NCBI GenBank assembly: GCA_032718865.1
Contig: JALUTQ010000004.1
Location: 2,108,001-2,172,000 of the forward strand
Source: Tilletia caries
Lineage: Eukaryota; Basidiomycota; Exobasidiomycetes; Tilletiales; Tilletiaceae
Reading direction: 5' to 3'
Length of the DNA stretch: 64,000 nt
The notes under the pieces: model-generated
Told to the model about the DNA's origin: nothing
Databases searched by the model: none
The model's input: the letters and a program-made list of their open reading frames with translations, nothing else
Part shown: in pieces, positions 9,978-46,290 of the stretch
Numbering within the stretch: the first letter of the stretch is position 1
Layout of the letters: every line of letters begins with the position of its first letter
Translations under genes and position numbers: made by a program

Positions 9978-12900
9978 TCACTCTTCTGGTTGAGGTCCCG
10001 TGCCGAGGCGAGCACGAATGCGTGATCGGTAGAGCTTGACGTGCGAGGGGTGAATGGAGGAGGGTAAAGCCGTGCCCTGCATCGTCGTCATCCAGACTCC
10101 GCCGTTGATCGTCTGCCAGAGCACCTTGAAGGGGCCGACCCAGTTGTCCTGCAACTTGACTTCCGCTTCGTGAGAGCTGATGCCCTTGAAGTTCCGGACG
10201 AGCACGAGTTGACCGGGCTGGAAGCTGGGCATTACAAGGGACTCTTGGAGATTTCGGCGAGCAACAGCGCGTTCTCGGTCGGTGCTCTTGCTCTTGCGAG
10301 CGAGCTCGAGCAGCTCCTTGTGAGTGCCGAGTCGAGCGACGCGTTCGGCGATGGCGGCAAGGAGAGCATCCTCGTCGTCCTTGATGACCGCGTATTTTTG
10401 GACGAGTTCCGGACTGGAGAGATCGATGGGCAGCACAGGCTCGTGCGCGTGCAGAGCAGAGAGAAGGGACTTGCTCCGTACTGACGGCGAATTGACGTTC
10501 GATCGATCCAGCAGGCCAAACTGTCGACTTCTGGCCAGGGAGCTCCAAGCGTGCGAGCTGCATGAACAATCGCTTCCTTCAATGGCGGGTGACCTCGCTC
10601 GACTGCGCCGTTTGCTCGAGGGTTGTAGACGCTGGTCCTTGTGATATCGATCTTGTATTTGTTGAGCAGCTCGTCGACAACACCTTTGAACTCAGTGCCT
10701 TGATCAGTTGTGACCTGAATGGGTAACCCATGTCGCGTGAAGACATCCTTGACCAGAAATCGCGCGACCGAACGCGAAGACTTGTGCCGCAGAGCTCGAG
10801 CTTCAACCCAACCGCTCAGATCGTCGCGGGCTACGACGAGGTAGCGTTGACCGAGCGCCTTGGGCAGGTAGGTGATGTCGAGCCCGATTCTCTGCCATGG
10901 ACCAGGGGCAATTGTCGGCCGAATCTCGACCTCCTTGTGACCCTTCTCTCGCCGCTGGCAGGAGTCACACGTCTTGATCCACTCACGTACATCCAGGAGG
11001 AGCTTCTTCCAGAAGTACCGCTCTTCAAGAATCCTTGCAGTCGTCAATACCCCTTTGTGACCGCTCTCCTCGTGTGCCATCCTCATAAGCCGCTCCTGCT
11101 GCTCCTTGTCGTCGACCACCAGACGACCGGCGCCTTCGATTCCACCGCGCCGCCACAGGCAGTCGTCGACCACGAAGTACCGCGAGGCCTTGCGCAGGAA
11201 CGCCTTGTTGACGGCATACGTGCTCGCTGAGGGGGGCTTCTTGCCGTCCTTGAGGAAAGTGAGGATCTCCTGGTGCTCTTGTGAGAGGTCGAGCGGGCGC
11301 GAAGGCGGGGAGTCTGGCGACGGGGCTCCGTCCTCGACCTGCAGAGCAGTGAGAGGGAGCTGGAGGAAGGAAGGGACAAGGAGATTGGCTGCAGGCGAGC
11401 TCGACAGTACCAGGTACGAGTCGTTGAGCTTAGCAGTGATCCACCCGTCGTCGTCTGTCACCGCGTCGTCATCAGGCTGCACTGGGCGACGAGAAAGGCC
11501 GTCGGCGACAGCGTTGTCCTTCGCCTTCACGTGCAAGACTTCGAGGTCGAAGAGCAGAATGTATGCGAGCCATCGAACCATCGCGGAGTTAGGTAATTCC
11601 GGATTTGCGAGCATGCCTTTGACGAAACCGGCGTCTGTCCGCACGATGACCCGGGTTCCCCACAGCCAGTGACGGAAGTACTTGAGAGCGCGGAACACCG
11701 CGTATAGCTCGCGCTTCGCCTGTGAATAACCTTGCTCTCTCTCGTTGAAGGGCAGCGATCCGTAGCGAGCAACCCGGATCACTTCCTCATCGTTTTCCTG
11801 GCCAAGCCAGAATCCGCAAGCGAGAGGTCCTGCGTCGACTCCGAGCTGAATCGGCTTCATGTCGTCGCTGTATTTGAGCTCAACGAGGCATGTCCTCTCC
11901 GCGATAATGCGTTTGACTTCGTCCATCGCCGCTTGTTGTTCCGGACCCCAGTGGAAGCTGACTCCCTTCCTCGTAAGCTGAGTGAGTGGCTGAATGAGGA
12001 GCAAGTAGTCCGGGACCCACGCCCGAGCCTGTCCGGCGAGCCCAATGAAGCTTCGTACCTCCGAGACACTGCTGCAGCGAGTCCATTTCAGAACCGCATC
12101 AACCTTGCCCTTGGAGACGCGACGACCCTCAGGACTGACCTCTTGTCCCAGAACCTCGACAGTGCGGCGAATGGGCGCCATCTTGCGAGCCGACACTGTC
12201 ATTCCTGCCTTCCCGATGCGGAAGAGGACACGGTGAAGCTTGGTCAGGTACTCGTAGATGAAGCGTCGGAAATTCGGATTATCAGGGATAGGCTCGTCGT
12301 CGTAGGTGCTGTCTGGGCCAGGGATGAAGGTATCATCGACATACACCTTTCCGTCGGGACCAACGATTGCCACGACGATAAAGTGGAAGACAACACACGA
12401 ATTTGTGCCGCCTTGTGGTAGACGAGTGTGCCGCAGACGACCGAGCTCGGTCTCGAACGTGGTGAGGTCTCGAGATTCCACAGCAAGCCAGACCTGATCA
12501 AACCCCGAGAAGTGATCGAGGCTTCCGATGCATGCCTTGCCGCTGAGCTCGCCGACGAACTGATCAATCTGCGGGAGTCTGCCGGGAATTCGCTTCGTGA
12601 CTCCGTTGAGAGGCTGCAAGTCGTGCACAATCCGGTAGTCTCCAGCAACCTTCTTCATCACCGCAAGCCATCGACTCGTGTACCCAGCTGACGAGGCCTC
12701 GTACAGTCCCGAGTCGATCTTGCTCTTGAGGATGCCGAGAACCTTCTCTTTGATCGCTGCCGGTACGGGAATGTTCCTCATGTTCCACAATTCGTGCTCG
12801 GTGACTGGAATCGTTACAGGAGGCACTATGGCTGGGTCAACTACGCCTTTCTCGGACTCATCAAAGGCCATGGCCATCTCGTTGCTCACCAGCACCCACT

Positions 12901-14042
12901 TCAGCAGGTCCATCTCGTCGGGGAGAAGTAGACCGTCCGGGTCGAGCTTGAGCTCTGCGAGTCGCTCGAGCGTCAGTCTCTTGCCGGGCTGAAGTGGAGG
13001 TGCGATCGAGGGGAGCTTGATCATGTCGTCCTCGTAGTCGGGCGGAATGTTGACCTGGACTCGATCGTGCTCAGTAATGTTCTCCGCGACGGACCGAACC
13101 TTGCGCGCGACCGGCTTGTATGCTGCGAGCACTGAAGGTTGGTGAGCAGGGGTCCTCGTGGTCCGTTCTCTGGCCAGCAATGCTTGCTCCTCGTCAGCGT
13201 CCTCTCGCCTGAGTACTCTACCCAGCTCGTCCTCACAGAGCAGATGCGAGACTTCACGAACCACGTCATGCACAGACAACCGGTAAGAGGAACGGGGGTC
13301 AGATTGCTCGGATGGGAAGGCAATAAAGGAGTGTGTGGCGGTAGTGACAGGATCGTGGATAGTGATGAGGAGGCCTTCGTCTGCGTCGCGGTTGATGCAG
13401 CGGACAGTGCGTTGCCAAGGGCGGCCGAGGAGGAGCTCGTACGTGCAGTTCTCGATCACATGGAGGTGAATACGAGCGACAACACCGCCGCAGTTGACGT
13501 CGACGTTCCGAACAATGTGGTTCAGGGAAGAAGAACGTCCGTCCGCCGTGCGCATGCTGCTGTTGTAGGTGGTGAGCGGTAGGCGCAGGCGTTCGCAGGC
13601 TGAGCGACTGATGACGTTGATCTCCGATCCCGAGTCGATGATCGCCGTGATGGGCATGCCCGAGACGCGACACTCCACCTTTCCAACTCCGCATGACATC
13701 AACGACACGTTCACGTCCGGCTCTACCACAGTAACGTCCCATCCGTCTTCTCCTGTACCAGAATCGAAGGCATTGACGTCGAAGTTCTTGTGTCGCTGCA
13801 GCATCGGTCCGAGGATCTTCTGCACTTCGGGAGACGCGAGCAGGACTCCAGTGGGCACTGTGATGGGGTTCTCGATGAGCTTCTGCAGCACCGAGGCGGG
13901 GGGGGGGGTAGGCCTTGCTGATCTCGCTCGTAAGCGTGTACCGACGAGGGGGCTGGCGGCGCTTCTCACCTCCAGCGTCCGTCATCGCTGTGTCTCCCAC
14001 GACTGAGGGAGCAGCCTGGGACGGTGGGGCAGCGGGTGCCAC
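9978..14042 (-). pseudogene. Ty3-like polyprotein (PR-RT-RNase H-IN), canonical order
   Basis: The main frame runs 13969-10232. Protease has IIDSGSE near residue 112. A divergent RT shows VDD in place of the YxDD centre (KVYVDDTFIPG). RNase H is complete and in the normal place: VDAGPLACGFWL, then KRELYAVFRALKYF, then RTDAG and NAVADGLSRRP. Integrase follows with HKGV..CDSCQRR zinc-binding residues and a DDE core (GLDITYL, TTDQGTEF, NGAVERGH). The last 150 residues (RNFKGISSHEAE, VGPFKV) are in another frame, 10436-9978, so one frameshift lies near 10445. A run of nine G at about 13899-13907 causes another: the N-terminal segment ending RYTLTSEISKAYPPP (14042-13910) is in a different frame. 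Open sequence continues upstream to about 14290. LTRs were not found. Confidence 0.85.
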
Positions 14043-18803: not shown

Positions 18804-18965
18804 CAGGGGCTCGGGTAGTATACTCCATGCTACCTTTGGTCGTCGGGAGGGCGAAGGTAGTATATAGGGTAGGATGGTATGGTATAGTATTTCCTATAAT
18901 ACTACTATACTCCAAGGCCAAAAAGGGGTAGTACTATAGTATTATAATGTTTCTACTATAGTATG
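18804..18965. mobile_element. MITE fragment with GTAGTATAC / TACTATAGTA words
   Basis: Begins CAGGGGCTCGGG, like the CAGGGCTCGGC end of the complete MITE at 60230-60910, and is dense in self-complementary TACTATAGTA and AGTATACT words. It stops abruptly against the 3' end of Ty3 element 2 with no matching right terminus, so it is truncated or marks the deletion that removed the element's 3' end and LTR. Confidence 0.6.
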
Positions 18966-21900
18966 CGCCGCGAGCGTTCCTAGGTCAAAGTTGCGGAGAC
19001 CAGGCGGAGGACGACGGCTGCGGACGGAAGAAGACACGCGCTCGGAATTCAGCCCGTCGACCACATCACGACGCGACACGGGATCGAGGGATGGCGAGGT
19101 GCAGGCGGAGGGCGGATCCGGTGCATCCTCAACGACGCGAACAGGAGGAGGAGACCCGGCGCGAGCAAGAGCGAAGGGGTCGGGACTGGGCGGCACGAGG
19201 TCCAACTGCTCGACACTCATGACCGGATCGACCGCCACTCCCTCCGGCAGCAACAGGCGGACGCGATGCGGCGAGAGTACCTCGTCAACGACGAACGGGC
19301 CGCTCTTGCGTGCATCAAGCTTCGACCCCACCGCGCCCGGGATCGGCCGGTCCGCCAGACGGACAAAGACGCGATCACCAGCTTGGATCGGTGGCAACGG
19401 AGCCTGCCGAGCGTCATAACGGCGCTTCTGTTCCCGCCGAGCCGACACCATGGCCGCCCGAGCGTCCTCAAGGTGCTCATGAGCAGCAGCAAGCCGCTCA
19501 GGGAACGACGCAACGCCGAGGTGCTCCGCGTCGTCGAACACAGCGTGCACGATGGACGGATGCGACACGAAGACGAGGTCAAACGGCCGAACACCCGTCG
19601 ACACCGCGGGGGAGGAGCTAATCGCCAGTTCGGCCGCGGGCAGGGCGCGTTTGTCCCAATGCGCCGCAGAGTCCACAGAGAGCGCCTGCAAAACCTTCTG
19701 AACCGTCTGGATCGAGCGCTCAACAGCGTTGGCTTGCTGATGGTACTGCGTCGACGGGGTGAGTGTTGCGCCCAAAGAGGCAGCCAGCGCAGCCATCCTG
19801 GCTCCAGTCATGCGTGCTTCGGAGTCACTGACGATGCGCTGCGGTCGCCATCTCATGCGCAGGACGCGATCACTCACGATGGCCGCAATCCCATCGGCCG
19901 TCACGGTGTGATGACAGGGCGTCAGCAGGACCATTCGCGAGAAGGTATCGAGGATGGCAAGGGCAGCATCGTTTCCGGAACGCGACAACGGCAAGCCCAG
20001 GACCAGATCGATGGAGATGCGTTCGAAAGGACCCGACGCGTCGTTGTCGATGTCGAGACTGCCCGTCTTCGGAACCGACTTGGTCCGTTTGCAGACTCCA
20101 CAATGCTTGACCCAAGCACGAACCGCCGTAGACAGCGAGGGTCGCCAAAACCGCCGACTGATGGCCAGGAACGTCTTGACGAAACCAAAGTGGCCCGTCC
20201 CATCGTGTGCCGCTCGAAGAATGGTGGGCAAGCCCGCCTCCGGCAAGGCCAACTTGTCATCCGCGCATCGTATCAGGACACCGTCACGAAGCACCCAACC
20301 AGGACGAGAGTCCGGTGACTTCTCCAAGTCTCGCAGCATCAGTCCGAAGACACGGTCATCGCGCAGCCACTGTGTCCACCGGGCGCGTGCCACGGACGGA
20401 GGAAGGAGAGGGACCGCTAAGTGAGCAAGGGTGGCGGCGGACGAAGACTCGGAGAGGGTCTCGTGGGTATCGTCCTCGATGCAAACCTGGTGCAGGATCG
20501 CAGCAAAAGCCTCCTTGCTAGCATCCACGTACAGAATGTACGGGTGGGCCGGATTCGGATGGGCGAGGACGGGCGGCTGACTGATGGCGGCCTTTAGAGC
20601 ATCAAAGCTACGCTGCTGCTCGTCAGCCCACGGAATCGACACGCGCGAGGCCACGGCAGTCTTGCCCTCCACGCTGACGAGCCGAGACTGGTCATCCGAT
20701 GTTTCGTATCACCAACCCCGCAGCAGACGCGTCAGGGGCTCGGCTACCTCGGCAAATCGATGCAGAGATAGATGACGGCCTGCTGCCAACGTAAGGGTCC
20801 GAGGACGTGATCCATCAAGCGTTGGAAGACCGAAGGGGCGTTCCGCAACCCAAAAGGAACCATTTTGTACTGGAAGAGACCGCGATGGCAGATAAACGCC
20901 GTCTTCCATCGGTACTCTTCACGCACGCCGAGCTGGTGATACCCGCGGATGGCGTCGAGGGCGCTCAACCATTTCTTGCCCGACAGCGTCTGGAAAACGG
21001 AGTCAATCGTCGGCAAAGGGTACCGATCCGGGATCGTGTGCGTGTTGAGCTGTCGGTAGTCAACGCAGAAGCGCCATTTGGCCTGCTGCTTGACCATGAT
21101 GACCGGGAAAGACACGGAGCTATGAGATGGCTCGATGACGTCCCAGTCAAGAAGCTGGTCAATGGCGGCGTCCATGGCGTGCCGCTTCTCGGGACTGGCA
21201 CGGCGAGGGGCCTCGGGGAGGAGATTGGCGTCAGGGCGGAGCGGGATTGCCATGTCAAACCCGACAACGCGACCCGGGCGACCGTCCAGGGCGAACGCAG
21301 CATGGTGGCGACGGAGCAACGCGAGAACCTCGGGAGGCGCCGTGCCGGACGGGTCCACGCCAATGCGGAAGGCATCGTCGAACACCGACGTGGCTGCGTC
21401 CTGGATCAGCGTATTGTCGACATCCTCTGTGCCGGCGAACACGTCCAACGGAACGCCCGGAGCAGAAGCGAGATCGTCCGACGCCGACGCTTCGGTCGCA
21501 GCCAACGGGTATTCCTTCACGTGCGAAGCAGCCGTCAGCCGGAACACCTCTACGGACGCGCGGACAACATCCCCGACGCGTGCCGCGACTGCGTCCGCAA
21601 TCACGGTCCCCTTGCCGAGCAGGTGAGCAGACGATCCGTAGTTGCCGAGCAGAACGAAGGCACGGGGCTGATGAACCATCACTCCGGAAGGACCTGTGAG
21701 CCGAACAGATTCGTCAGGCGACACCGTAAGACGAGGCAGAACGGCGTAATCGACGCCTGGTGCCAGCGAAGAAGCCCCGACGGGTACCCATGCTTGGAAA
21801 CCAGGTTCCAGCACGATGTCCTCCGCGACGACCAAGGTCAGATCAGCGATGGGTGGACCGTCCACGCGCTCGGAAACAGCAAAGGTGAAAGGACCCACGC

Positions 21901-22477
21901 GGGCACGACCACGGGCGGGGGAGATGGACACGTCGTGGCCCGCAATGAAGTCTTGGCCCAAGCATAGACCGGGCGCGAAACGGGGAAGAACATGAAAGTC
22001 GTGACGGAACTCCAGGGCGACGTGGGTGCCGTGGAGATCCGTTCCATCGATGAACGCCGTCAACGTCGTCCAGCCCAGCCTGCGCGTGTCCCCGAGGCCA
22101 TGGACCGCCATTGATGTACCTTGCGGCCGGCCACCGAGCCGAGACAAAAGACCGGCGTCGATGACGGATAGGGAGGCGCCAGTGTCCAACAGCGACGACA
22201 AGGTTCGACTATCGGTACCGTTCACGCGGACGTGAACAGTGAGGGGAACGTGGATTCGGTACCCGGTGCCGCTCCCTGTGGCCGACATGGAAGGCAGCGG
22301 CACAACGTTACCGTACCGACGAGTTTCTTGGGCGAGCGGGGGTCGTTTCTCGTTGACGTTCATGGTTCGTTCCACATGGAAAATGGATCGATCGGCGAAA
22401 TACAGACAGGCATCTTCAGAAAATGGAAGTGGTGTGGAGTTTGCAGGTGGAAGATCATCATGCATTGAATTGGACAT
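18966..22477 (-). pseudogene. Ty3 element 2 pol: protease, RT, split RNase H (N part), integrase
   Basis: The first frame (22477-20744) holds a retropepsin with SSLLDTGASLS (DTG at residues 98-100) and RT through FCVDYRQLN, TIPDRYPLP, GYHQL and FGLRNAPSVFQRLMD. It stops at QAVIYL just where YIDD should come. Compared with element 3, about 95-100 residues including the catalytic YIDD are deleted; the text resumes with EPLTRLLRGW near 20735. The second frame (20672-18942) has only the start of RNase H (LYVDASKEAFAAILHQV), then goes directly to integrase: HDGTGHFGF..HCGVCKRTK zinc residues, SIDLVLG, VSDSEARMTG, NAVERSIQ, GPY/F-like KSGPFVVDEVL. It ends at RPPPGLRNFDLGTL, homologous to the linker before the displaced RNase H part in element 3, cut by a MITE fragment. 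Confidence 0.88.
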
Positions 22478-22754
22478 GGCGGTCGCAAGGCCAGACCCAT
22501 GTGTAATCTACAAGCAGAGTGAGGAATGGAAACATGAGAATGGATCTTGGGACAGAGCAGCATGGAAAGCCGAAGCTAACCACTCACGGAAGGGGGTGTA
22601 GAAACCAGCGTCGTCGTCCCTCCCATCACACTCTTCTCCGGACCCGAGTCGGGTCGAGCAGCAGCGGTACCCTCGTCCTTGTCGGGAGGATGAGGAGGGG
22701 GCCGCATGTTGTGCATCGCCGCGGGTGCTTGGTCTAGTTTAGAGTCGTCGCGGA

Positions 22755-36372: not shown

Positions 36373-36470
36373 AAATACGGACTCACCCAAAAACCTCAAA
36401 GACAAGAAGTCACCCGGAATCAGTGCTGCACAGAAGCTGTTGATTTGCATTCAATTTCATGAGGCTCAGC

Positions 36471-36743
36471 TGTGCTGGATGAGACCCCAGCGTGACCACC
36501 AGTCTCCCTTTGTTCTCTTTCTCTCTTGCTTCCCTTTGTTCTCTTTCCAGACTCAGATCCAGACTCGCTCGCCTCTCGCTCAGCCGTTCCCATAACGTTC
36601 CTCACTTAATGCTCTCTCACCTTCCCACTCTTCCCTCTTGTATTTCCTCTCTGCTGCTCTACAATCAACTTGCTCTTCTTCTCTTCAACTCTTGCGTTGT
36701 ATTGGCTCTTGCGCCTGGACTCTTGCGTCCTACATACAGCACA
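36471..36743 (+). repeat. 5' LTR of element 3
   Basis: Begins TGTGCTGGATG and ends CATACAGCACA, giving 7-bp inverted ends TGTGCTG/CAGCACA. It differs from the 3' LTR by one base (C versus T in the CACCTTCYCACTC stretch). An internal direct repeat CCCTTTGTTCTCTTTC occurs twice about 27 bp apart. It should hold the promoter, but no canonical TATA box is evident. Confidence 0.97.
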
Positions 36744-36761
36744 TGGTGATGAGAGTTGGAT
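36744..36761 (+). other. Primer-binding site of element 3
   Basis: TGGTGATGAGAG starts directly after the 5' LTR, as expected for annealing to a tRNA 3' CCA end. The same word is present in element 2. I cannot name the tRNA from sequence alone. Confidence 0.75.
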
Positions 36762-36863
36762 CTTGTTGAGTACCTGCACTACAGAGCTCTACAAACCCAC
36801 TGCCACCTCCTCCCTTTGCAATCACCCTCTATACTTTGCCACCCTCCTCCCTCCACAGTAACC

Positions 36864-38373
36864 ATGGCGCCTCTCACCAGCACCACCCCCATCCCCGGTC
36901 CTGCTGCCACCATCGGCGCGTCCTCGGTCGAGCTCCCCACCATCAACGTGCCCGGAGACGACTCCAACGTCTCCTCCCTCACCGATCTCCCCAGTGGCTC
37001 CCAAGAGCCCTCGATGGAGTCCCTTCCCGCCCTCGTACAGAGCCTGCTGCTGCAGGTTGGCGAGCTCAAGAGTCGCGTGGTCGATGCCGAGGGCGGCCGC
37101 TCGGAGAGCCGATCTCGCCTGGTCGAGCCTCACCGTTCTGTGCCCGGTCGCCCTTCCACACCCGCGCAGCAGATACATGCGCTTCATTCGACCCCCCTCG
37201 ACCGTCCTCCCCCTCCCCACATGACCGGCTCGAAGTCGTCTGCGGCCCTCCTCTCCTTCCAGAGGCAGACCGGCCCGGACAAGCAGGTCGTTCGCGAGGT
37301 TCTTGAGCGGATGGGGACGTCGATATACGACGTGTCGATCGCATCGGTCGAGACTCCGGATCTCCACGGTCCGATGAGGCCTTCCGCGCCTCCGTCGATC
37401 CCGGCACGGCCCCCGACGTCGTATCCACCTCCGCGGATCCTTCGTCAACCGCGTCGTCCGACCGGTTCATCTTCGTCCGGCCGGAGTACGTCCCGTCGTT
37501 CAACGGTGACCCGCTCCTGCTTGAGCGCTATCTGACGCGTCTCAACGACATCATCCGCACCGGCAGAACGAGGCTTGGGTGGCGGGCGTCCTCCGGTCGG
37601 TACCGCTTTGCTTCGAGGGCGATGCCGAAGAGTGGCACGCGGGACTGCCAGCGGAAGAAGCGGCGTCCTTGTCGTCTTTCGACGCGCTCGCCGCCGCGAT
37701 GCGAGTGGAGTTCCCGGCGAACGGTTCGGAGCAGCGTCGCCTTGCTCGCGACCGAGTGTGGGACCCTACAGCGGAGCCGGCCAGCACCTTTTATTTCGCC
37801 AAGTTGCGTGCCCTTCGCACCGCGTTCGGCCACGATCAAACAGACCGTGTCCTCGTTCAGGACATCGTCGACTGTCTGCCGCCGACGTTCCAAGCGATGC
37901 TCCGCCTCCCGCGTTCTGGTGTCCGGCTCGTCGATCTTCGCGCCGAGATCGGCATCTGGGAACCGACCTGGCGGAAGATCTTTCCCCAGTTCGACATCCG
38001 CAGTTCGACGCCCGCCTCGGCTCCCGTTGCTCGCGTCATCGCATCGACGCCTCGAGTCACCTCCGTCTCGACACCCGGCCCTACACCCGCCTCGGTTCCC
38101 GCGGCCCCGGTGCCTGTCGCGTCGACTCAGTCGTCCTCCCGTCCCCTCGGTTTGGCCGCCACCTATGATCCGTCGCGTGTCATCCCGGCCGCCGGGGGCG
38201 AGAAGCGCAAGTATCGGCGTCCGTCCGACAACCAGACGATCGAATTGAATCGTCCGTGTGCCCGTTGTGGTCAAGAGCACTTCACCTTCGAGCACATGCA
38301 CTTGATGCCGTCCGCTCACTTTATGGACCGGTCGGAGGACGATGACGACTACCCGTTGTCCGCGGGTTTTTGA
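36864..38373 (+). pseudogene. Element 3 Gag (frameshifted)
   Basis: The start ATG at 36864 lies in an ACCATGG context, 120 bp after the LTR. The N-terminal frame has a Ser/Pro-rich region and a helical LVQSLLLQVGELKSRVVDAEG. Near 37315 the coding signal moves to another frame (DEAFRASVDPG, then DRFIFVRPEYVPSFNGDPLLLERYLTRL), and near 37565 to a third (AWVAGVLRSVPLCFEGDAEEWHAGL, FYFAKLRALRTAFG). The last frame continues to 38373, with LGLAATYDPSR and the knuckle CARCGQEHFTFEHMH. Homology with element 2 Gag runs through all segments, so this was one protein. Two frameshifts in a young element are odd: real decay or base-calling error. Confidence 0.82.
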
Positions 38374-38603
38374 ACGTCCGGAACGACGATAAACTACCAG
38401 CGGGCGACGCTCTTTCCAGCGATCGCCCACCCCCTCAGCCACCCGATGCTGGCAACCTCTTCCTTGCTGAGTCGGCGCGCGCTGTTGAATAGAGTAGGGA
38501 CACTGAGTCAGTAGCCCTCGTCCGCGACGACGTTAAACTAGCTCACCTCGATTCCTCTAAGCCGTTCTCCCCGGGGCGTAACGCCACCCCGGACGAGACG
38601 GGG

Positions 38604-41600
38604 GTGAGGGTCGTTGCTGAAAGAGAGGACGGCATACCTCTGCCGCCTAGCGGCGGGGACAGTGCCCTTGACTGTCCCGGTGAGCATATGCCCGCCATTG
38701 CTCACCACAGCCCCCATCACCAGGGCGGATGCAAGAGCGGCGGAGAGAGGGCTGTGCCCCCTTCTGGTCCCCCAGGGGGCCTCTCCGTCGGGTACAGTGA
38801 CGGCGTGACCAGTGTGGAGACGGCGGAGGACCTGGACCACCCTCTGACCCGAGACCCGCTGGTCCCGATACTCGGGGAGTACTCGTCTTCCCGTGATGAT
38901 TCGTTGAGAAGCCCAGCTGACTGCCCCTCTCCTCCTCCAGTTGACGGGTCTGCCGAGGTGGGCCCGACGCTGTTCTTGGCCGATAGGTCGCATTTCCGAG
39001 CGAAGAAGTTGTTTGTGTTGGATCCAGTGGAGAAGCCTCTGCGGCACTCCACTTTTCGTTGTGGAAACGTCGTCCAGCTGCCGTCGATACCGGAGACAAC
39101 GTCAGGAAAGGGGTACACGAACCACGTCCCCTTGACGGTCCAACTCCGGATCAACAGCTCCACGGCGAACCCACTGTCGTCCTTGCTCGACACCGGGGCC
39201 TCGTTGTCGGGGATCGATGCCTCCCTCCTCGAGCGTCTCGGGGGTCGTCCACAGGGAGACGGCATGACGGTGAAGGGAATTGGCGAGATGCGTACGAAGG
39301 GGTTTACGACCGTCACTTTCTTCATCGAGGGCCGAGACAGTCGGGACAAGCAGGTCTTCCTGGAGTGCTCCCACGACCTGCACGTGTTGCCGAATTTCGG
39401 TCCAGGCTTGCTCCTCGGGCAAGACTTTATCGACGGGCATGATCTGTCCATCTCCCCCGCCCGTGGTCGCGCCCGTGTCGGTCAGTACACGTTTGCCGTC
39501 AACGAGAAGATTGAGGGCCCCTTCTCGGCTGACGTGGAGCTCCACACCGCCGTGGACGTGGTCGTCCCCCCTCATCACAACGTGTGGATTCCCGTCGATG
39601 CCGGTGGTCTGGCCCCCGACGTGGACTACTGCATACATCCGCGTCTCTCCGCCTCCCCGGACGAGACGGTGCAGCTTGCCGGTCCGACCGGTCTGATGAC
39701 GAAGGGGGCCGACGCCCGTCGTCATGTTTTGCTTGGAAACTTCGGCGCGGCCGATTGTCATCTTGCGCGGGGAACGATCGTGGCCGATGCGGTAGCCACG
39801 CGCGTTGGCGACGCGGCGCACGACTCTGGACGATTGTTTTCCTTGTCTGCCGCCGCCCCGCCCTCCCCCAGCTACCAGGCATATACTGCCTCCGCGGAGC
39901 CTGACCCCCTGTCTGGCGTCGCTGACCCTATCGACGCGTTTGAAGCAGAGGGTGGCGCCGATCCCGACCCACGCCATGACTCGGCCACCGTCGAGATCGA
40001 CGGCCATTTCCGTGTCGGCGTCGACGATGACGGTTGCCCCTCGCCTGCGGTCGTCGCCTTGCTGCGCCGTCACGAAAAAGCGTTTGCACTCGACGGTCGG
40101 CCGGGCCTAGTGCACGGCACCGAGATGGCGATCGACCTGAAGGAGGGGACTGACTTACGCCCTGAGGCGCCTCGCCGTGTTAGCCCGGAGAAGCGGCAGG
40201 CTATCGATACCGCCATCGATCAGCTCCTAAAGTGGGACGTCGTGAAACCCTCGTCGAGTCCAGCCTCCTTCCCGGTCCTCATGGTCCGCCAGTACGGCAA
40301 GTGGCGCTTTTGTGTTGACTACCGTCAACTCAACGCGAGCACCATCCCGGATCGGTATCCGCTGCCGACCGTGGACTCGGTTTTCCAAACGCTGTGCGGC
40401 AAGCGGATCTTCAGCTCGCTGGACGCGATCCGCGGGTATCACCAGCTGCCCGTCCGTCCTTCCGACCGTTGGAAGACCGCTTTCACGTGCCACCGCGGGT
40501 TGTTCCAGTATCGCACCGTCCCTTTTGGTCTCCGTAACGCCCCGGCCGTGTTTCAACGCCTTATGGACCGGTTACTCGGCGCGCTTCGGTGGCAGGACGC
40601 TGTGGTCTACATTGATGACATCGTTGTGGCAACGGCCAGCTTGGAAGACCATCTTCGTGCCCTCGAGTCCATCTTATCGTCGGCTGAACGGGAGGGGTTG
40701 CGTTTCAGCCCGGGGAAGTGCACTTTCGCGGTCGGGTCGCTAGTGCTCTTAGGAAGGAAGGTTTCCGGAGCAGGCGTGGCGATCTGGAGCGATCGGGCGG
40801 CCGCGGTGCGGGATCTGGCCCGTCCGACCACCTTGCGAGAGTTGTATCACGCCCTTGGCCTGTTCGGTTATTACCGCATGTTCGTGCCGAACTACGCGCG
40901 GATCGCCGAGCCGTTGTCGCGGCTCACGCGGGGTTGGCGTTATGAGCAGGCCAACGGTCGTTATCGGCTGGTGAACGCGGACGGGAAACCGGCGGTGGCA
41001 GAACGCGTTGTCCTTGACTGGACGGGGGCCCAGCAGCAGAGTTTCGATGCGCTGAAGGCGGCGCTCGTTTTTCCGCCCGTCCTGGCCCACCCCGACCCAT
41101 CTCGACCCTACTTGCTGTATGTCGATGCAAGCAAAGATGGGTTCGGTGCCATCCTCCATCAGGTTTTCGACCGCGACGTCCCCTCCCCTCCTCAATCCGT
41201 GGAATCCGCGCAGCTCCTCGCCATGGATCTGGTGCGGGCGCCTCAGCCGATTGCGCGCGAGAGGTGGACCGCGTGGCTGCGGGCCGACCGCTTGTTCGCT
41301 CCCGTCGTGCGCGAGGCAGAGAGTCGAGACCGTCGGGAGTCGTTGGACGGTGTCTGGTCATTCCGCGACGGTGTTCTCGTTCGACGGCAGGATGGCCGCC
41401 TTGCCTTGCCGGAGGGAGCGCTGCCAGAGTTGTTGCGGTCAGTTCATGATCAGAACGGGCATTTCGGGTTCTACAAAACCTACCTTGCGCTGTCTCGTCA
41501 CTTCTGGCGGCCGGGACTGGCCGTGTCCGTTCGATCATGGGTGAAGTTCTGCTCGGTGTGCCAACGGACGAAGCTGGGACGAAAGACAGGCGCGCTGCGC

Positions 41601-42611
41601 ATCGATCGGGACCCTCAGGCGCCGATTGACGCTATCTCCTTGGACATCGTCCTGGGGCTCCCGTTGTCGCGCTCCGGCAACAACGCCGCCGTCGTCATCC
41701 TTGACGTCTTCAGCAGGACCGTGCTCATTGAGCCGTGCCCACATACGATCACGGCGGAGGGAATCGCAGCTATTGTCAGCAATCGTGTCTTGCGCTACGG
41801 CTGGCGCCCTCGTCGGCTGGTGTCTGACTCTGAGGCGCGACTCACCGGTTCTGTGATGAGCGCGCTGGCGACGTCATTGGGTGCGGAGATCGCGCCAAGC
41901 CCGCCGTATCATCAACAAGCTAACGCGGTGGAGCGCGCCATCCAGACTGTGCAGCACGTCCTGCAGTCTATTGCTCTGGACTCTCGTGCACATTGGGATC
42001 GTCGTCTCGCCCCCGCCGTCGAGCTGGCAATGAATTCCAGCCCCTCCGTGACCACCGGGCATCGCCCCTTTGACCTCCTTTTCATCAGCCACCCTGATAT
42101 CGTCCATGCGGTGTTCGATGGCGAGGAGGAGCACGCCGGTGTAGGTACCTTCGCCGAGCGGTTGGCAGCGGCTGAAGAGCGCTTGGTGGAGGCTCGTCGG
42201 ATGATTGCGGCTGCGAGGGCAGGACAAAAGAAACGGTACGATCAGTCTCGAGCGTCTCCCGCTGCGATTCGCGTCGGCGATCTGGTATACGTACGACTGA
42301 GAGATCGCCCTGTCCCGAACGCCATCGGGGACAAGCTCGACGCGTGGAAGAGAGGACCGTTTGCCGTGACAGAGGTTCTGTCCGCGCACCGTATCCGCCT
42401 CGACCTCCCCGACGACATGGCCATCGATCCTGTCTTTAGTACGGAGCAGGTCGATGTCGTCCCTCGCTCCCTCGCTCCCCTGATCCGTTTTCCGCCAGTC
42501 GTGCTCCGTCGCTGCCCGAGCCGGTTCCTCGAGGACACGATGATGCTGCGGGTTCGGGTGATTCCGCTGGGGGGGAGGCGCCAGAGGTGCCTGTGTCTGA
42601 CGAGGTCTTGA
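38604..42611 (+). CDS. Element 3 Pol: protease, RT, RNase H (N part only), integrase
   Basis: A 1,335-residue frame. Retropepsin: SSLLDTGAS, DTG at 196-198. RT: FCVDYRQLN, TIPDRYPLP, FGLRNAPAVFQRLMD and YIDD at 669-672; connection to RLTRGW. RNase H begins PYLLYVDASKDGFGAILHQV (catalytic Asp near 841) but, after 19 or so residues, the text is the usual pre-integrase linker (RWTAWLRADRLF). Integrase: H..H/C..C finger (VHDQNGH, CSVCQ) from about 947, then DDE core SLDIVLG, VSDSEARLTG and NAVERAIQ with about 34 residues between the second Asp and Glu; GPY/F-like KRGPFAVTEVL. The missing RNase H strands and helices lie downstream. Beyond about residue 1285 the reading is out of the ancestral frame owing to an 8-bp tandem duplication at 42461-42476. 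The first 60 residues are low-complexity, so the true start may be later. Confidence 0.92.
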   Translation: MRVVAEREDGIPLPPSGGDSALDCPGEHMPAIAHHSPHHQGGCKSGGERAVPPSGPPGGLSVGYSDGVTSVETAEDLDHPLTRDPLVPILGEYSSSRDDSLRSPADCPSPPPVDGSAEVGPTLFLADRSHFRAKKLFVLDPVEKPLRHSTFRCGNVVQLPSIPETTSGKGYTNHVPLTVQLRINSSTANPLSSLLDTGASLSGIDASLLERLGGRPQGDGMTVKGIGEMRTKGFTTVTFFIEGRDSRDKQVFLECSHDLHVLPNFGPGLLLGQDFIDGHDLSISPARGRARVGQYTFAVNEKIEGPFSADVELHTAVDVVVPPHHNVWIPVDAGGLAPDVDYCIHPRLSASPDETVQLAGPTGLMTKGADARRHVLLGNFGAADCHLARGTIVADAVATRVGDAAHDSGRLFSLSAAAPPSPSYQAYTASAEPDPLSGVADPIDAFEAEGGADPDPRHDSATVEIDGHFRVGVDDDGCPSPAVVALLRRHEKAFALDGRPGLVHGTEMAIDLKEGTDLRPEAPRRVSPEKRQAIDTAIDQLLKWDVVKPSSSPASFPVLMVRQYGKWRFCVDYRQLNASTIPDRYPLPTVDSVFQTLCGKRIFSSLDAIRGYHQLPVRPSDRWKTAFTCHRGLFQYRTVPFGLRNAPAVFQRLMDRLLGALRWQDAVVYIDDIVVATASLEDHLRALESILSSAEREGLRFSPGKCTFAVGSLVLLGRKVSGAGVAIWSDRAAAVRDLARPTTLRELYHALGLFGYYRMFVPNYARIAEPLSRLTRGWRYEQANGRYRLVNADGKPAVAERVVLDWTGAQQQSFDALKAALVFPPVLAHPDPSRPYLLYVDASKDGFGAILHQVFDRDVPSPPQSVESAQLLAMDLVRAPQPIARERWTAWLRADRLFAPVVREAESRDRRESLDGVWSFRDGVLVRRQDGRLALPEGALPELLRSVHDQNGHFGFYKTYLALSRHFWRPGLAVSVRSWVKFCSVCQRTKLGRKTGALRIDRDPQAPIDAISLDIVLGLPLSRSGNNAAVVILDVFSRTVLIEPCPHTITAEGIAAIVSNRVLRYGWRPRRLVSDSEARLTGSVMSALATSLGAEIAPSPPYHQQANAVERAIQTVQHVLQSIALDSRAHWDRRLAPAVELAMNSSPSVTTGHRPFDLLFISHPDIVHAVFDGEEEHAGVGTFAERLAAAEERLVEARRMIAAARAGQKKRYDQSRASPAAIRVGDLVYVRLRDRPVPNAIGDKLDAWKRGPFAVTEVLSAHRIRLDLPDDMAIDPVFSTEQVDVVPRSLAPLIRFPPVVLRRCPSRFLEDTMMLRVRVIPLGGRRQRCLCLTRS

Positions 42612-43162
42612 GCGCCGGAGCTGACGGCGTGATGGACGTCGATGGGAGGGGATCGCCGCGCGCTCGTCGTCTGCCCGTGTCGCTCCGGGGATTCCACCTT
42701 GGCGTGTTGACGACGGCGGACAGGGCGCAGTTGGAGAAGGCTTTGGGAGAGCCCATCCACCGTCCTCGTCGGCTCGCGTTGAGCGATCGGTCGGTGCTGC
42801 TAGAGGAGAAGCCGGTGGCTTTCCTCTCGCGGTTGACAACACCTGCGGAGCAAAAGATGGTAGCTGCTGAGCTGGAGCTGCGCTGTCTTGCTTGGGCTTT
42901 TGCGAAGTGGGCTTACCTGCTGGAAGGCGCTTTGGTCACCGTCGTGACGGATCATCAGCCGATGGGCGCGATGCTACAGTCCACGGCTGGCGTCAGTTAC
43001 GGTCCCAACATCGCTCGGTGTCGCGCACAGCTCATGCCGCACCTACCTCACCTCCGGTTCGTCGTGAAGCCAGGCGCTCTTCACTCCAACGTTGACGCCT
43101 TGTCTCGTCTTCATACGGACCCGGGTCGGTCCGCTTTTTTGGGGGGGGGATGTGCTGGATGA
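42440..43162 (+). CDS. Displaced C-terminal RNase H domain of element 3
   Basis: Open in the -1 frame relative to pol from 42440 to a stop just inside the 3' LTR. It contains SLRGFHLGVLTTADRAQL (linker shared with element 2) and then the main body of a Ty3 RNase H: PVAFLSRLTTPAEQKMVAAE with catalytic Glu, LELRCLAWAFAKWAYLLEG, VTVVTDHQPMGAML with Asp, and VVKPGALHSNVDALSRL with the last Asp. This is exactly what is lacking after LYVDASKDGFGAILHQ in pol. Removing one copy of the 8-bp repeat at 42461-42476 puts it in frame behind integrase, with SPDPF text matching element 2. It should complete the RNase H fold in cis or after proteolysis. Confidence 0.88.
   Translation, partial: YGAGRCRPSLPRSPDPFSASRAPSLPEPVPRGHDDAAGSGDSAGGEAPEVPVSDEVLSAGADGVMDVDGRGSPRARRLPVSLRGFHLGVLTTADRAQLEKALGEPIHRPRRLALSDRSVLLEEKPVAFLSRLTTPAEQKMVAAELELRCLAWAFAKWAYLLEGALVTVVTDHQPMGAMLQSTAGVSYGPNIARCRAQLMPHLPHLRFVVKPGALHSNVDALSRLHTDPGRSAFLGGGCAG
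43141..43150 (+). other. Polypurine tract
   Basis: GGGGGGGGGA immediately before the 3' LTR, preceded by a run of T. It is the usual primer site for plus-strand synthesis and overlaps the last codons of the RNase H C part. Confidence 0.8.
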
Positions 43163-43423
43163 GACCCCAGCGTGACCACCAGTCTCCCTTTGTTCTCTTT
43201 CTCTCTTGCTTCCCTTTGTTCTCTTTCCAGACTCAGATCCAGACTCGCTCGCCTCTCGCTCAGCCGTTCCCATAACGTTCCTCACTTAATGCTCTCTCAC
43301 CTTCTCACTCTTCCCTCTTGTATTTCCTCTCTGCTGCTCTACAATCAACTTGCTCTTCTTCTCTTCAACTCTTGCGTTGTATTGGCTCTTGCGCCTGGAC
43401 TCTTGCGTCCTACATACAGCACA
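43151..43423 (+). repeat. 3' LTR of element 3
   Basis: Same 273 bp as the 5' LTR with one substitution. Followed by TCAGC, the right copy of the target duplication. Confidence 0.97.
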
Positions 43424-44019
43424 TCAGCGCTGTCGAGACAGTGCCGAGTGGGCAAATTTTCAGTCCGCATTGTAAAGGAGGTGAACCCCATTTGTCCTTT
43501 TCGGCGCGCTGCACCGCCGCAGTGAAAAAAGCAAGTGGTTTCATACTTCCAGGAAAATTGATAAAATTATACCTGGAGAGAAGAGCCTAGTCCAATGTCC
43601 GAGGATTTAGTGTTGCTTCGCGATCATCATATAATATTAGGGGTGTTTAGCAACAGGACGCATGGTATAATACGACGCTAATCTGGACGCGGGTCCGGAG
43701 TTGACTGGTCACGAAGGTACCTCGGTAAGCCGTGCGATGCGACCTGCTTGCGGTGGAGCGGCGGTTAAAATGCGGTTATTGCTTGTGTTTAACTTCAAAA
43801 AGGCGCCACAGAAAGATCGCCGCAGCCGAGGGTCGGTGTTGATTTTCCCCAGCTGCGAGCGACCAGCAATGGTGCTCCAGCATATGTTGTGTATTTCCCT
43901 TTGTCCGCACACACATGGCGGGTCACGTGACCTCCACCTTCACACTCATTGTTCTCTCGGCCGATAATTTCTCCATTCTCTCCGCTCCACTTCTCGCTCT
44001 CGTTTCCCACACTCTCACC

Positions 44020-44776
44020 ATCACGTGAACGATCTCTGTCCGATAATCACTGCCCTGAGCAGAGAATCTTCACCCATTGGGTGCATTTCTCCACAGATGT
44101 CCTTGGGCGGAATTTTGTTGGCCGGGGTTTTGGTGGCCTTGATCGCTGTTCTTTCTGCCTTGTTCCGCTTCTCGATGTGGTGGGCGAGTTGTTGAAGGGA
44201 GCGGAGGACCATATCCGCGATGTTGCTGCCGCTGCACCTGGATGGGAGATGGAGAGTTCACTGGTTAGCTCACATTAAGCAGGTCGCCAGCGGCCCACTT
44301 GAGTACTAAGATTAGTACTAACCCCGTTGTCTAAGGTGATGAAGGTGAGAACGAGACGACGAGGGATGGGGGAATGGGGATACTCACTTCTCAGACTCCC
44401 CATAAAACTTGCTGTGGACGGTGTTGGCCCGCAGAACCACCACAGGAACGCGAGCGGCGGAGGCGACATGGGCGACGATGAACGTCTTGCCCGTCCCGGG
44501 CGGTCCGTAAAGGATGGCCCCGCCGGCGAGGGGAACGTGCTTGAAGACGCCGATGCGTTTGATAGGCTTGAAGAGACTGTAGTCGAGCTCTTCAAGCTGG
44601 GGGTCGACACCGGCGGGACATGCTGTCGGCTTGGTGAGGATGCTGAAGGTCGGAGTGGGCCCGGCGGACTCGGACTCGGACTCGGGCTTGGGGTCGGGCT
44701 TGGGCTTGGGCTTGGGCCTGGGGTTGGACTTGGGCTTGAGGTCGGACTTGGGAATCATGCTGGCACGACAGGTCAT
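44020..44776 (-). pseudogene. AAA ATPase, internally deleted
   Basis: The first exon (44776-44384) has a Lys/Pro and Glu/Ser repeat-rich start, then the entry to an AAA module: LEELDYSLFKPIKRIGVFKH, Walker A GAILYGPPGTGKT and ANTVHSKFYGESE. A GTGAGTATC donor follows. The last exon near 44240-44020 contains CSGSNIADMVLRSLQQLAHH, like the C-terminal lid of AAA domains, followed by a basic tail. The intervening 100 bp is far too short for Walker B, sensor 1 and arginine finger, so the middle of the domain is deleted and it cannot hydrolyse ATP. The pattern resembles CDC48/AFG2-type proteins but I cannot be more specific. Confidence 0.6.
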
Positions 44777-45269: not shown

Positions 45270-46290
45270 TGCTTTTTACTTGCATTAGGTTATGTACTAC
45301 AGAGCACGCAGTTATAGACTAGCGTTTACTGTTCACAGTCAAATCGTTGCGGCTTCTGGGCTTCCTTGTGGCATGGTCGATTCTTGTTGGGCAGGGTGTC
45401 ATTTCAGCGGCTTAATGGTCGCGATTTGGACCTTCGCAGTGGCGATGCCAGTAAAGCAGCTTTCCTCGCTGGCAAGATGACCCTGGTCATCAATCTATAG
45501 CGCAAAGGCGAGTTTGGTCAATTCAGTGTAGGCAGAGCACCGAGCAGAGCTCGAGGCATCACGAATCACGATTCTTACAGTCTCAGAAAGTTGTAGAACA
45601 TCGCCAGATGTCAGAAGCTGTGTGTCATGGCCGACACCCATTCTGATCGTGGTGTACGCCGTCCTGATCGAATTTTTCGAATTGGCCCGCAAGAGAAGAT
45701 CTCGGCATGCCATTCAAAGCCGAAGATGCTTGCAGCCCGGCCAAACTGCTGGCAAGCGGGTCCGTCCAGGTCGACCGAACAAGAGGAGCTTGAGTTTGAG
45801 GCTCGCCGAACGAGACATCGAACATGTGTTGATTCCAAGCAGGTTGGGTAGCAGGTCCTTGAGGCCCGATCATGCTGTTGGCAGACGGGTCAGTCCAGGT
45901 CGACCGAGCAAGAGGAGCTTGAGCTTGGGGCCCGCCGAGCGACGCATCGAAGATGTATTAAGGCCAGGCAGGCTGGGCAGCAGGTCCTTGAGGGCTGTAA
46001 AACGTCAGCTCGCGACAGCTGGACTGTTGTTGTACCGGATGCTGCGGGGAGGGAGCTGAGAGGTAACGAACAGGATACTTTTGACGATGTTGAGTGTGGC
46101 GATGTTGAGTGAGGAAGAGCTTCCTAGCAGTGCCTTTTGGAGGGCGTAAAATTGGCCGACGTTTCTCACTTTTATTGCTCTAGTTTTGGAATCCATCATG
46201 TATTTCTCACAGCCCTGACAGTTTACCACGACACCCGTTTATCGAGCTTTGGAAGTCAGCCGTTAGACCACCCTGGCCGGTTGACGTGCT
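45270..46290. other. Sequence with a 129-bp tandem duplication; no sure gene
   Basis: Short frames of both strands cross this stretch. The longest plus frame (45622-46059) encodes two copies of a unit containing GRPxKRSLSL and GSRSL, simply following the DNA repeat. No domain recognised. Confidence 0.4.
45735..45992. repeat. Two-copy tandem repeat, period 129 bp
   Basis: CCAGGTCGACCGA recurs at 45766 and 45895 and the surrounding 129 bp are duplicated with about 15-20% divergence (AAGAGGAGCTTGAG, GCAGGTCCTTGAG in both). The period is a multiple of three, so frames stay open across both copies. Confidence 0.8.

Follow-up and report, generated by a model that had tools for sequence, protein, structure and literature searches.

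Here we describe a lineage of retrotransposons in which RNase H is split in two by integrase. We found it in element 3, a long terminal repeat (LTR) retrotransposon at 36471-43423 of a 64,000-nucleotide stretch of the Tilletia caries genome (the window; contig JALUTQ010000004.1). Its pol reads reverse transcriptase (RT), the N-terminal part of RNase H (N-part), integrase and, at the extreme 3' end, the C-terminal part of RNase H (C-part). This order occurs in many copies across the genome and in proteins from three fungal orders, which group as one clade in our trees. The RNase H catalytic residues are conserved, and substitution ratios point to purifying selection on both parts. The rearrangement is real, shared and apparently undescribed.

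Integrase separates the two parts of RNase H in element 3

Element 3 is bounded by two 273-bp LTRs with a single mismatch between them, at 36625, and carries TCAGC on either flank. It has the near-identical LTR pair and the target duplication by which an LTR retrotransposon is recognized. Pfam searches of its main open reading frame (ORF) placed RVT_1, positions 1-52 of the 100-position RNase H-like family PF17919 (residues 806-857), Integrase_H2C2, rve and SH3_Tf2-1 in this order, the last two below threshold (24.7 bits, cut-off 32.6, and 27.8 bits, cut-off 30). The remainder of RNase H lies in a 3' ORF, which matched PF17917 over positions 29-100 of 105 (50.3 bits) and PF17919 over positions 54-100 (31.7 bits). 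Profiles built from relatives repeated the Pfam order (N-part, 87 bits; integrase core, 175; C-part, 133). The two parts are 1661 bp apart, and the codons of all four catalytic acidic residues were located (Table 1). Unfiltered searches of the linkers of element 3 and of five relatives returned no second RNase H, the best score being 0.4 bits.

A first-pass annotation of the window had proposed that RNase H starts normally after RT, with its first catalytic Asp, and runs directly into a linker and integrase; that its remainder follows the GPY/F region; that the four acidic residues are retained; and that LTRs with one difference and a perfect TCAGC duplication mark one element rather than a chimera of neighbors. 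All of this held, with the C-part inside the LTRs. The complete RNase H between RT and integrase that the annotation had raised as an alternative did not appear in the linker searches. Two points need correcting: the permutation did not arise in element 3, as the order is common to many copies and species, and the C-part of element 3 is in another frame than the rest of pol, which the annotation had not mentioned.

The permuted order recurs across the genome

We searched the genome with PF17917 (150 matches scored of 315 candidates), rve (150 of 344) and a C-part protein (150 of 186), and the copy counts are accordingly lower bounds. Sorted by hand, the 150 scored PF17917 matches comprised 69 partial ones, covering about positions 29-90, and 81 that were full or otherwise placed. 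Measured between match midpoints, rve lay 1074-1110 bp upstream in 20 of the 69 partial matches; 48 had no listed rve within 3 kb, and one had only that of the next element. This last case, with rve 2923 bp downstream of C3:1430118, looked like an exception to the pairing, but the rve fits the next element, which has its own match at C3:1434133. Among the 81 other matches, rve was downstream in 42 (857-1675 bp), upstream in none and not listed for 39. The pairing separates the matches into two classes. In the C-part protein search, 130 of the 150 scored rows had 51-100% identity and 20 had 38% or less, with a gap between them (some loci gave two rows).

Twenty copies, selected from the 69 partial matches for long open frames, were fetched. 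All 20 carried RT, N-part, H2C2, integrase core, SH3 and C-part in sequence, although RT or integrase was broken across frames in several and the C-part match of one (L021) was split. An LTR pair was found at 15 of the 20 loci, the other five having none within 9.1 kb; the pair at L027, at 70% and within the element, lacks credibility, and those at L013, L016 and L021 were trimmed or lay further out. At 11 of these 15 loci, 36-49 bp separate the end of the C-part from the 3' LTR, which marks the C-part as the true end of pol. Five of the 20 loci had a 5-bp target duplication. An insertion of the 3' segment in element 3 only, the other possibility that the first-pass annotation had named, does not fit the C-part following integrase in every fetched copy and in most of the proteins described below.

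The window holds a second, broken copy of the lineage (18945-22507, minus strand), in which integrase and then SH3 come straight after RT and the N-part; downstream, no C-part was detected. Elsewhere in the genome, evenly spaced C-part matches at C37:5990-18872 (spacing 6349 and 6348 bp) and C1:1771216-1777699 (6304 bp) suggest tandem arrays of elements.

Permuted elements form one clade in three orders of Ustilaginomycotina

The first-pass annotation had suggested looking for fungal proteins in which integrase precedes the C-terminal half of RNase H, and such proteins were found. We examined 188 proteins, 186 from three protein searches (one of which listed 120 of 121 matches) and two translations from the T. 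caries genome. The C-part followed integrase in 127 (119 with all six domains, eight incomplete), the order was conventional in 47, integrase preceded RT in 13, a known alternative order used here to check the method, and one was mixed; the set was gathered with C-part queries from permuted proteins, and the 127:47:13 ratio is not a prevalence. The permuted order was present in Tilletia indica, T. controversa, T. laevis, T. caries and T. walkeri, as well as in Pseudozyma flocculosa, Ustilago trichophora, Parajaminaea phylloscopi and Melanopsichium pennsylvanicum. P. flocculosa, a biocontrol yeast, contributes P0115 (PFL1_01527) and P0124 (PFL1_02076). These hosts belong to Tilletiales, Microstromatales and Ustilaginales, all Ustilaginomycotina.

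Trees were built on chosen rows: a quick RT tree (60 rows), quick integrase and C-part trees (51 each) and a careful RT plus integrase tree (35), from which RNase H was excluded. In all three quick trees the permuted rows formed one group with a Shimodaira-Hasegawa-like approximate likelihood ratio support of 100. The careful tree, which answers the phylogeny proposed in the first-pass annotation, also recovered a single permuted clade (100/100). This clade joins P0120 and P0186 at 99/95, and together they group with P0179, P0180 and conventional rows from the T. caries genome at 99/99. P0120 and P0186 pair with each other at 94/79, P0120 being a long branch. A chromodomain is listed for P0120, P0179, P0180 and P0186, and also for P0144 and P0185, which fall elsewhere in this tree.

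These trees support descent from Ty3/Gypsy, and by sequence the permuted elements are one clade inside that group. RT and integrase are related to those of Ty3/Gypsy, Ty3 Pol being the best solved relative by sequence of P0001 and P0115. The defining pol order of the group, RT, contiguous RNase H and integrase, is absent from the permuted elements; because integrase interrupts RNase H, they are a derived lineage by descent and not members by architecture. Within the clade, the Tilletia rows do not form one group in the RT or the RT plus integrase tree; therefore, age and horizontal spread of the clade are not separable.

Both RNase H parts appear constrained and are predicted to form one fold

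Among permuted rows with a residue in the column, the catalytic acids were nearly invariant: the first Asp in 119 of 121, Glu in 127 of 127, the next Asp in 125 of 126 and the last Asp in 122 of 122. Rough median dN/dS values among own-genome copies were 0.091 for RT, 0.127 for the N-part, 0.209 for H2C2, 0.137 for the integrase core, 0.212 for SH3 and 0.130 for the C-part. These ratios indicate that both halves of RNase H are under purifying selection. The enzyme is probably active. Conservation between domains was lowest in the two linkers, around residues 236-258 and 676-697 of P0130.

Structure prediction had also been proposed in the first-pass annotation. We modeled two T. controversa proteins with AlphaFold2 (input alignments of 83 and 82 rows). 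In a predicted model both RNase H parts and RT superpose on Ty3 RT-RNase H at 1.9 Å over 369 residues, and the models also superpose on Ty3 integrase. The lowest mean predicted local distance difference test (pLDDT) score in five runs of the second protein was 72.6; in P0130, pLDDT fell below 50 at 244-258 and 678-695, within the linkers. For the first model, from a protein that lacks most of RT, Ty3 RT (4ol8) was not among the 50 structure matches listed, and the C-part alone had no solved-structure relative at E <= 0.01. The models predict that both parts re-assemble into one RNase H fold.

A model for the origin and operation of the split enzyme

Our model suggests that two neighboring segments of pol were exchanged, so that RT / RNaseH-N / RNaseH-C / integrase became RT / RNaseH-N / integrase / RNaseH-C. 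The cut is in the loop joining strands 2 and 3 of RNase H, which is lengthened in some of the nearest conventional relatives but not in all. Integrase would then be an inserted domain with a flexible linker on either side, outside which both parts of RNase H would close up into one fold in its usual place against RT. We consider it highly probable that the permuted elements are a Ty3/Gypsy lineage, nearest to chromodomain-bearing elements, in which such an exchange left integrase nested in a re-closing RNase H. Duplication followed by complementary loss would yield the same order; it has no visible trace, with no leftover RNase H found in the linkers, and block exchange and duplication-loss cannot be told apart.

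The loop offers a hint about the path. In 31 of the 35 conventional or integrase-first rows measured, 11-13 residues separate the two parts of RNase H. The outliers are P0144 (18 residues), P0120 (30), P0186 (65) and P0188 (65), and P0120 and P0186 are the sister rows of the permuted clade in the careful tree. This suggests, with partial support, that loop lengthening may have preceded the exchange. P0186 and P0188, the latter from Meripilus lineatus, are conventional elements with a 65-residue gap whose end resembles, by eye, the start of the permuted C-part. Several non-Tilletia permuted proteins contain a chromodomain-like stretch between SH3 and the C-part, always under the Pfam cut-off of 25.1 bits (P0182, 23.8 bits; P0115, 18.7 bits; P0125 and P0181, weaker); no Chromo match was found in the window element, and none is listed for P0114 or P0124. 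Because this stretch is kept between SH3 and the C-part, the RNase H parts may enclose the whole integrase module.

Several observations weigh against this explanation. The C-part of element 3 does not share the reading frame of the preceding pol domains, the main and 3' ORFs lying in different frames with overlapping stop-to-stop extents. The structure models are not of element 3, have predicted template-modeling scores of 0.51-0.52 and were judged without an inter-domain error map, and AlphaFold2 knows the RNase H fold from its training. The dN/dS values are rough, as synonymous sites are near saturation (median pS of about 0.7) and many saturated pairs had to be left out (for the C-part, 120 of 210). 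In the Ty3 sequence comparison described below, the two RNase H pieces are weak singly (2.5 and 1.5 bits). For the lengthened loop, the own-genome element L008, with a gap of 13 and absent from the 35-row tree, is about as near to the permuted clade on the RT and integrase trees, while P0186 is further off on the integrase and C-part trees, as is P0188 on the C-part tree.

The broken frame is particular to element 3 or arose when it was assembled. Elsewhere in the genome a single ORF spans RT to C-part (for example, 1601, 1542, 1533 and 1522 residues stop to stop), and the copy at C7:2400105, whose RNase H region is 90% identical to that of element 3, is open from integrase into the C-part and broken within the latter. 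As other copies are open through the same stretch, the frame breaks are copy-specific, and either decay or mis-assembly has broken in element 3 what other members of the lineage encode in one ORF. An assembly error may lie behind its frame break, since the assembly would be a Nanopore/Illumina hybrid if it is the T. caries assembly described in PMC10684912.

Within our model, the form of the mature protein can be read in two ways. We slightly prefer a single RT-RNase H-integrase chain over cleaved pieces held together non-covalently. In its strong form, which we put at somewhat under even, the three enzymes stay permanently joined, with one RNase H-fold enzyme nested in another and RT never separated from integrase by the protease; RNA degradation and integration would then be performed by one chain. 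We give a comparable, still tentative, weight to a variant in which the protease cuts both linkers and frees integrase, leaving the C-part as a small subunit that docks onto RT-RNaseH-N, a non-covalent split enzyme possibly formed between the subunits of an RT dimer. Both linkers are hypervariable and include the low-confidence stretches of P0130, which suits cleavage, and the second subunit of the Ty3 RT dimer supplies RNase H according to the portion of PMC11363490 covered, which makes an exchange between subunits conceivable. The lack of a standout conserved stretch in the linkers may speak against cleavage; sequence cannot distinguish the two forms.

We also weighed three other explanations. 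Splicing could remove integrase, spliced RNA giving RT with a contiguous RNase H and unspliced RNA giving integrase. In its favor, LHQ is commonly followed by Val, whose codon begins with GT (GT in 17 of 20 copies), and Glu encoded by GAG is frequent just ahead of the C-part (AG in 13 of 20). However, only 12 of the 20 copies have both GT and AG, no six-base stretch at the site in any of the 20 resembles a GTAAGT or GTGAGT donor, GAG at the junction (13 of 20) is no commoner than among Glu codons overall (976 of 1290), and where the junction is readable in non-Tilletia or unnamed proteins (six cases), the residue is Q, R or D, never Val. Nor does any other position in the stretches examined do better, the next best scoring GT 8 of 20 and AG 9 of 20. 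On account of these junctions, splicing seems very unlikely. Only marginally better placed, and still improbable, is a C-part that is a dying remnant for which a host RNase H substitutes. Many copies are broken, element 3 among them, and the second window copy has no detected C-part; yet the catalytic residues are nearly invariant, the dN/dS of the C-part is as low as that of the integrase core, a number of copies keep a single long open frame, and the arrangement is common to three orders. Nested insertions are common, and the assembly would, on the same condition as above, be a long-read hybrid, both of which could favor a chimera of neighboring elements or a mis-assembly. The LTRs and the target duplication enclose the C-part, though, and all 20 fetched copies and the proteins of other species share the order; the latter rule out such an artefact as the source of the gene order, and we regard it as negligible.

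Features of element 3 and its surroundings

The features of element 3 are listed in Table 1, where the primer-binding site, the polypurine tract and the integrase D,D,E triad are putative assignments. Elsewhere in the window, a conventional but very divergent Ty3-like ORF of 1249 residues (10235-13981, minus strand) encodes RT, contiguous RNase H and integrase and forms a long branch in the RT tree. The final part of an ORF at 44384-44776 (minus strand) matches the beginning of an AAA ATPase domain (PF00004, 36 bits), and two adjoining 129-bp repeats with 79% identity occupy 45724-45981.

Table 1 Features of element 3 in window coordinates
Feature	Position	Strand	Evidence
Target-site duplication TCAGC, 5' side	36466..36470		flank comparison
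5' LTR, 273 bp, TGTGCT start, GCACA end	36471..36743	+	1 difference from 3' LTR
Putative primer-binding site, TGG start immediately 3' of LTR	36744..36765	+	sequence only
ORF with weak gag-like match	37579..38373	+	Retrotrans_gag E 0.078, under cut-off
Main pol ORF, 1335 residues from first GTG	38604..42611 (stop to stop 38493-42608)	+	protease-like, RT, RNase H N-part, integrase, SH3/GPY-F-like
Reverse transcriptase	40143..40916	+	purpose-built profile 415 bits; PF00078
RNase H N-part, strands 1-2, first catalytic Asp 41124-41126	41019..41165	+	profiles
Integrase H2C2 zinc-binding domain	41400..41588	+	Pfam and purpose-built profiles
Integrase catalytic core	41640..42002	+	purpose-built profile; PF00665 sub-threshold
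Candidate integrase D,D,E codons	41643-41645, 41826-41828, 41931-41933	+	within integrase catalytic core
SH3/GPY-F-like integrase domain	42315..42473	+	purpose-built profile; PF24626 27.8 bits, cut-off 30
3' ORF with RNase H C-part, other frame, reaching into 3' LTR	42587..43162 (stop to stop 42440-43159)	+	
RNase H C-part, strand 3 to last conserved Asp	42827..43111	+	Glu 42875-42877, Asp 42950-42952, Asp 43094-43096
Putative polypurine tract region, T-run then G-run adjoining 3' LTR	43135..43150	+	sequence only
3' LTR	43151..43423	+	1 difference from 5' LTR
Target-site duplication TCAGC, 3' side	43424..43428		flank comparison

Implications and comparison with known systems

Classification of LTR elements makes use of the order of pol domains, with RNase H beside RT treated as fixed. 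In the permuted lineage, a catalytic module some 400 residues long splits an essential enzyme, an arrangement that persists in three orders of fungi and keeps the active site intact. It is a natural case of one enzyme placed within another from the same fold superfamily, reveals which RNase H loop accepts an insertion, and makes the need for protease separation of RT and integrase testable. Such elements could be taken for truncated or chimeric ones by annotation that looks for an uninterrupted RNase H ahead of integrase.

The first-pass annotation knew of no element with this permutation, and we likewise found no description of the order RT, RNaseH-N, integrase, RNaseH-C in the open-licence PubMed Central (PMC) literature, subscription journals and libraries of repeats (Repbase, for instance) lying outside the search. 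In the portions covered, PMC3248453 treats RT and RNase H as direct neighbors, and PMC10684912 and PMC9172201 count Gypsy elements without naming a domain order. The dual RNase H elements (Tat, Archon, Odin and retroviruses) share an altered RNase H module with the permuted lineage; as far as the parts of PMC5348765 and PMC9040795 covered describe them, theirs is a second RNase H beside the first, whereas the permuted lineage has one, in two pieces.

Further comparisons are with three groups of Ty3/Gypsy. Gmr1-type elements, to which we presume the 13 integrase-before-RT proteins belong, also have a rearranged pol; their integrase block precedes RT and their RNase H is whole, whereas RT precedes integrase in the window and in all permuted rows that have both. 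Goodwin and Poulter reportedly described in 2002 Gmr1-type elements with a Ty1-like order. The chromodomain-bearing, chromovirus-like rows (P0120, P0179, P0180 and P0186) are the nearest conventional relatives in the RT plus integrase tree and share the SH3/GPY-F-like domain, but their RNase H is contiguous before integrase, with gaps of 12 residues in P0179 and P0180, 30 in P0120 and 65 in P0186; the label is loose, as P0144 and P0185 list a chromodomain too and fall elsewhere. Finally, RT, RNase H and integrase of Saccharomyces Ty3 Pol (PDB 4ol8 and 7q5b) are all recognizable in the permuted elements. The P. flocculosa protein aligns with Ty3 Pol in four pieces: RT (404-666 with 587-848), N-part (701-749 with 857-905), integrase (840-1188 with 1111-1460) and C-part (1279-1380 with 916-1009). 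In Ty3 the RNase H pieces adjoin and integrase comes after them, whereas in Pseudozyma the C-part follows integrase: the four pieces are shared, and the last two are swapped.

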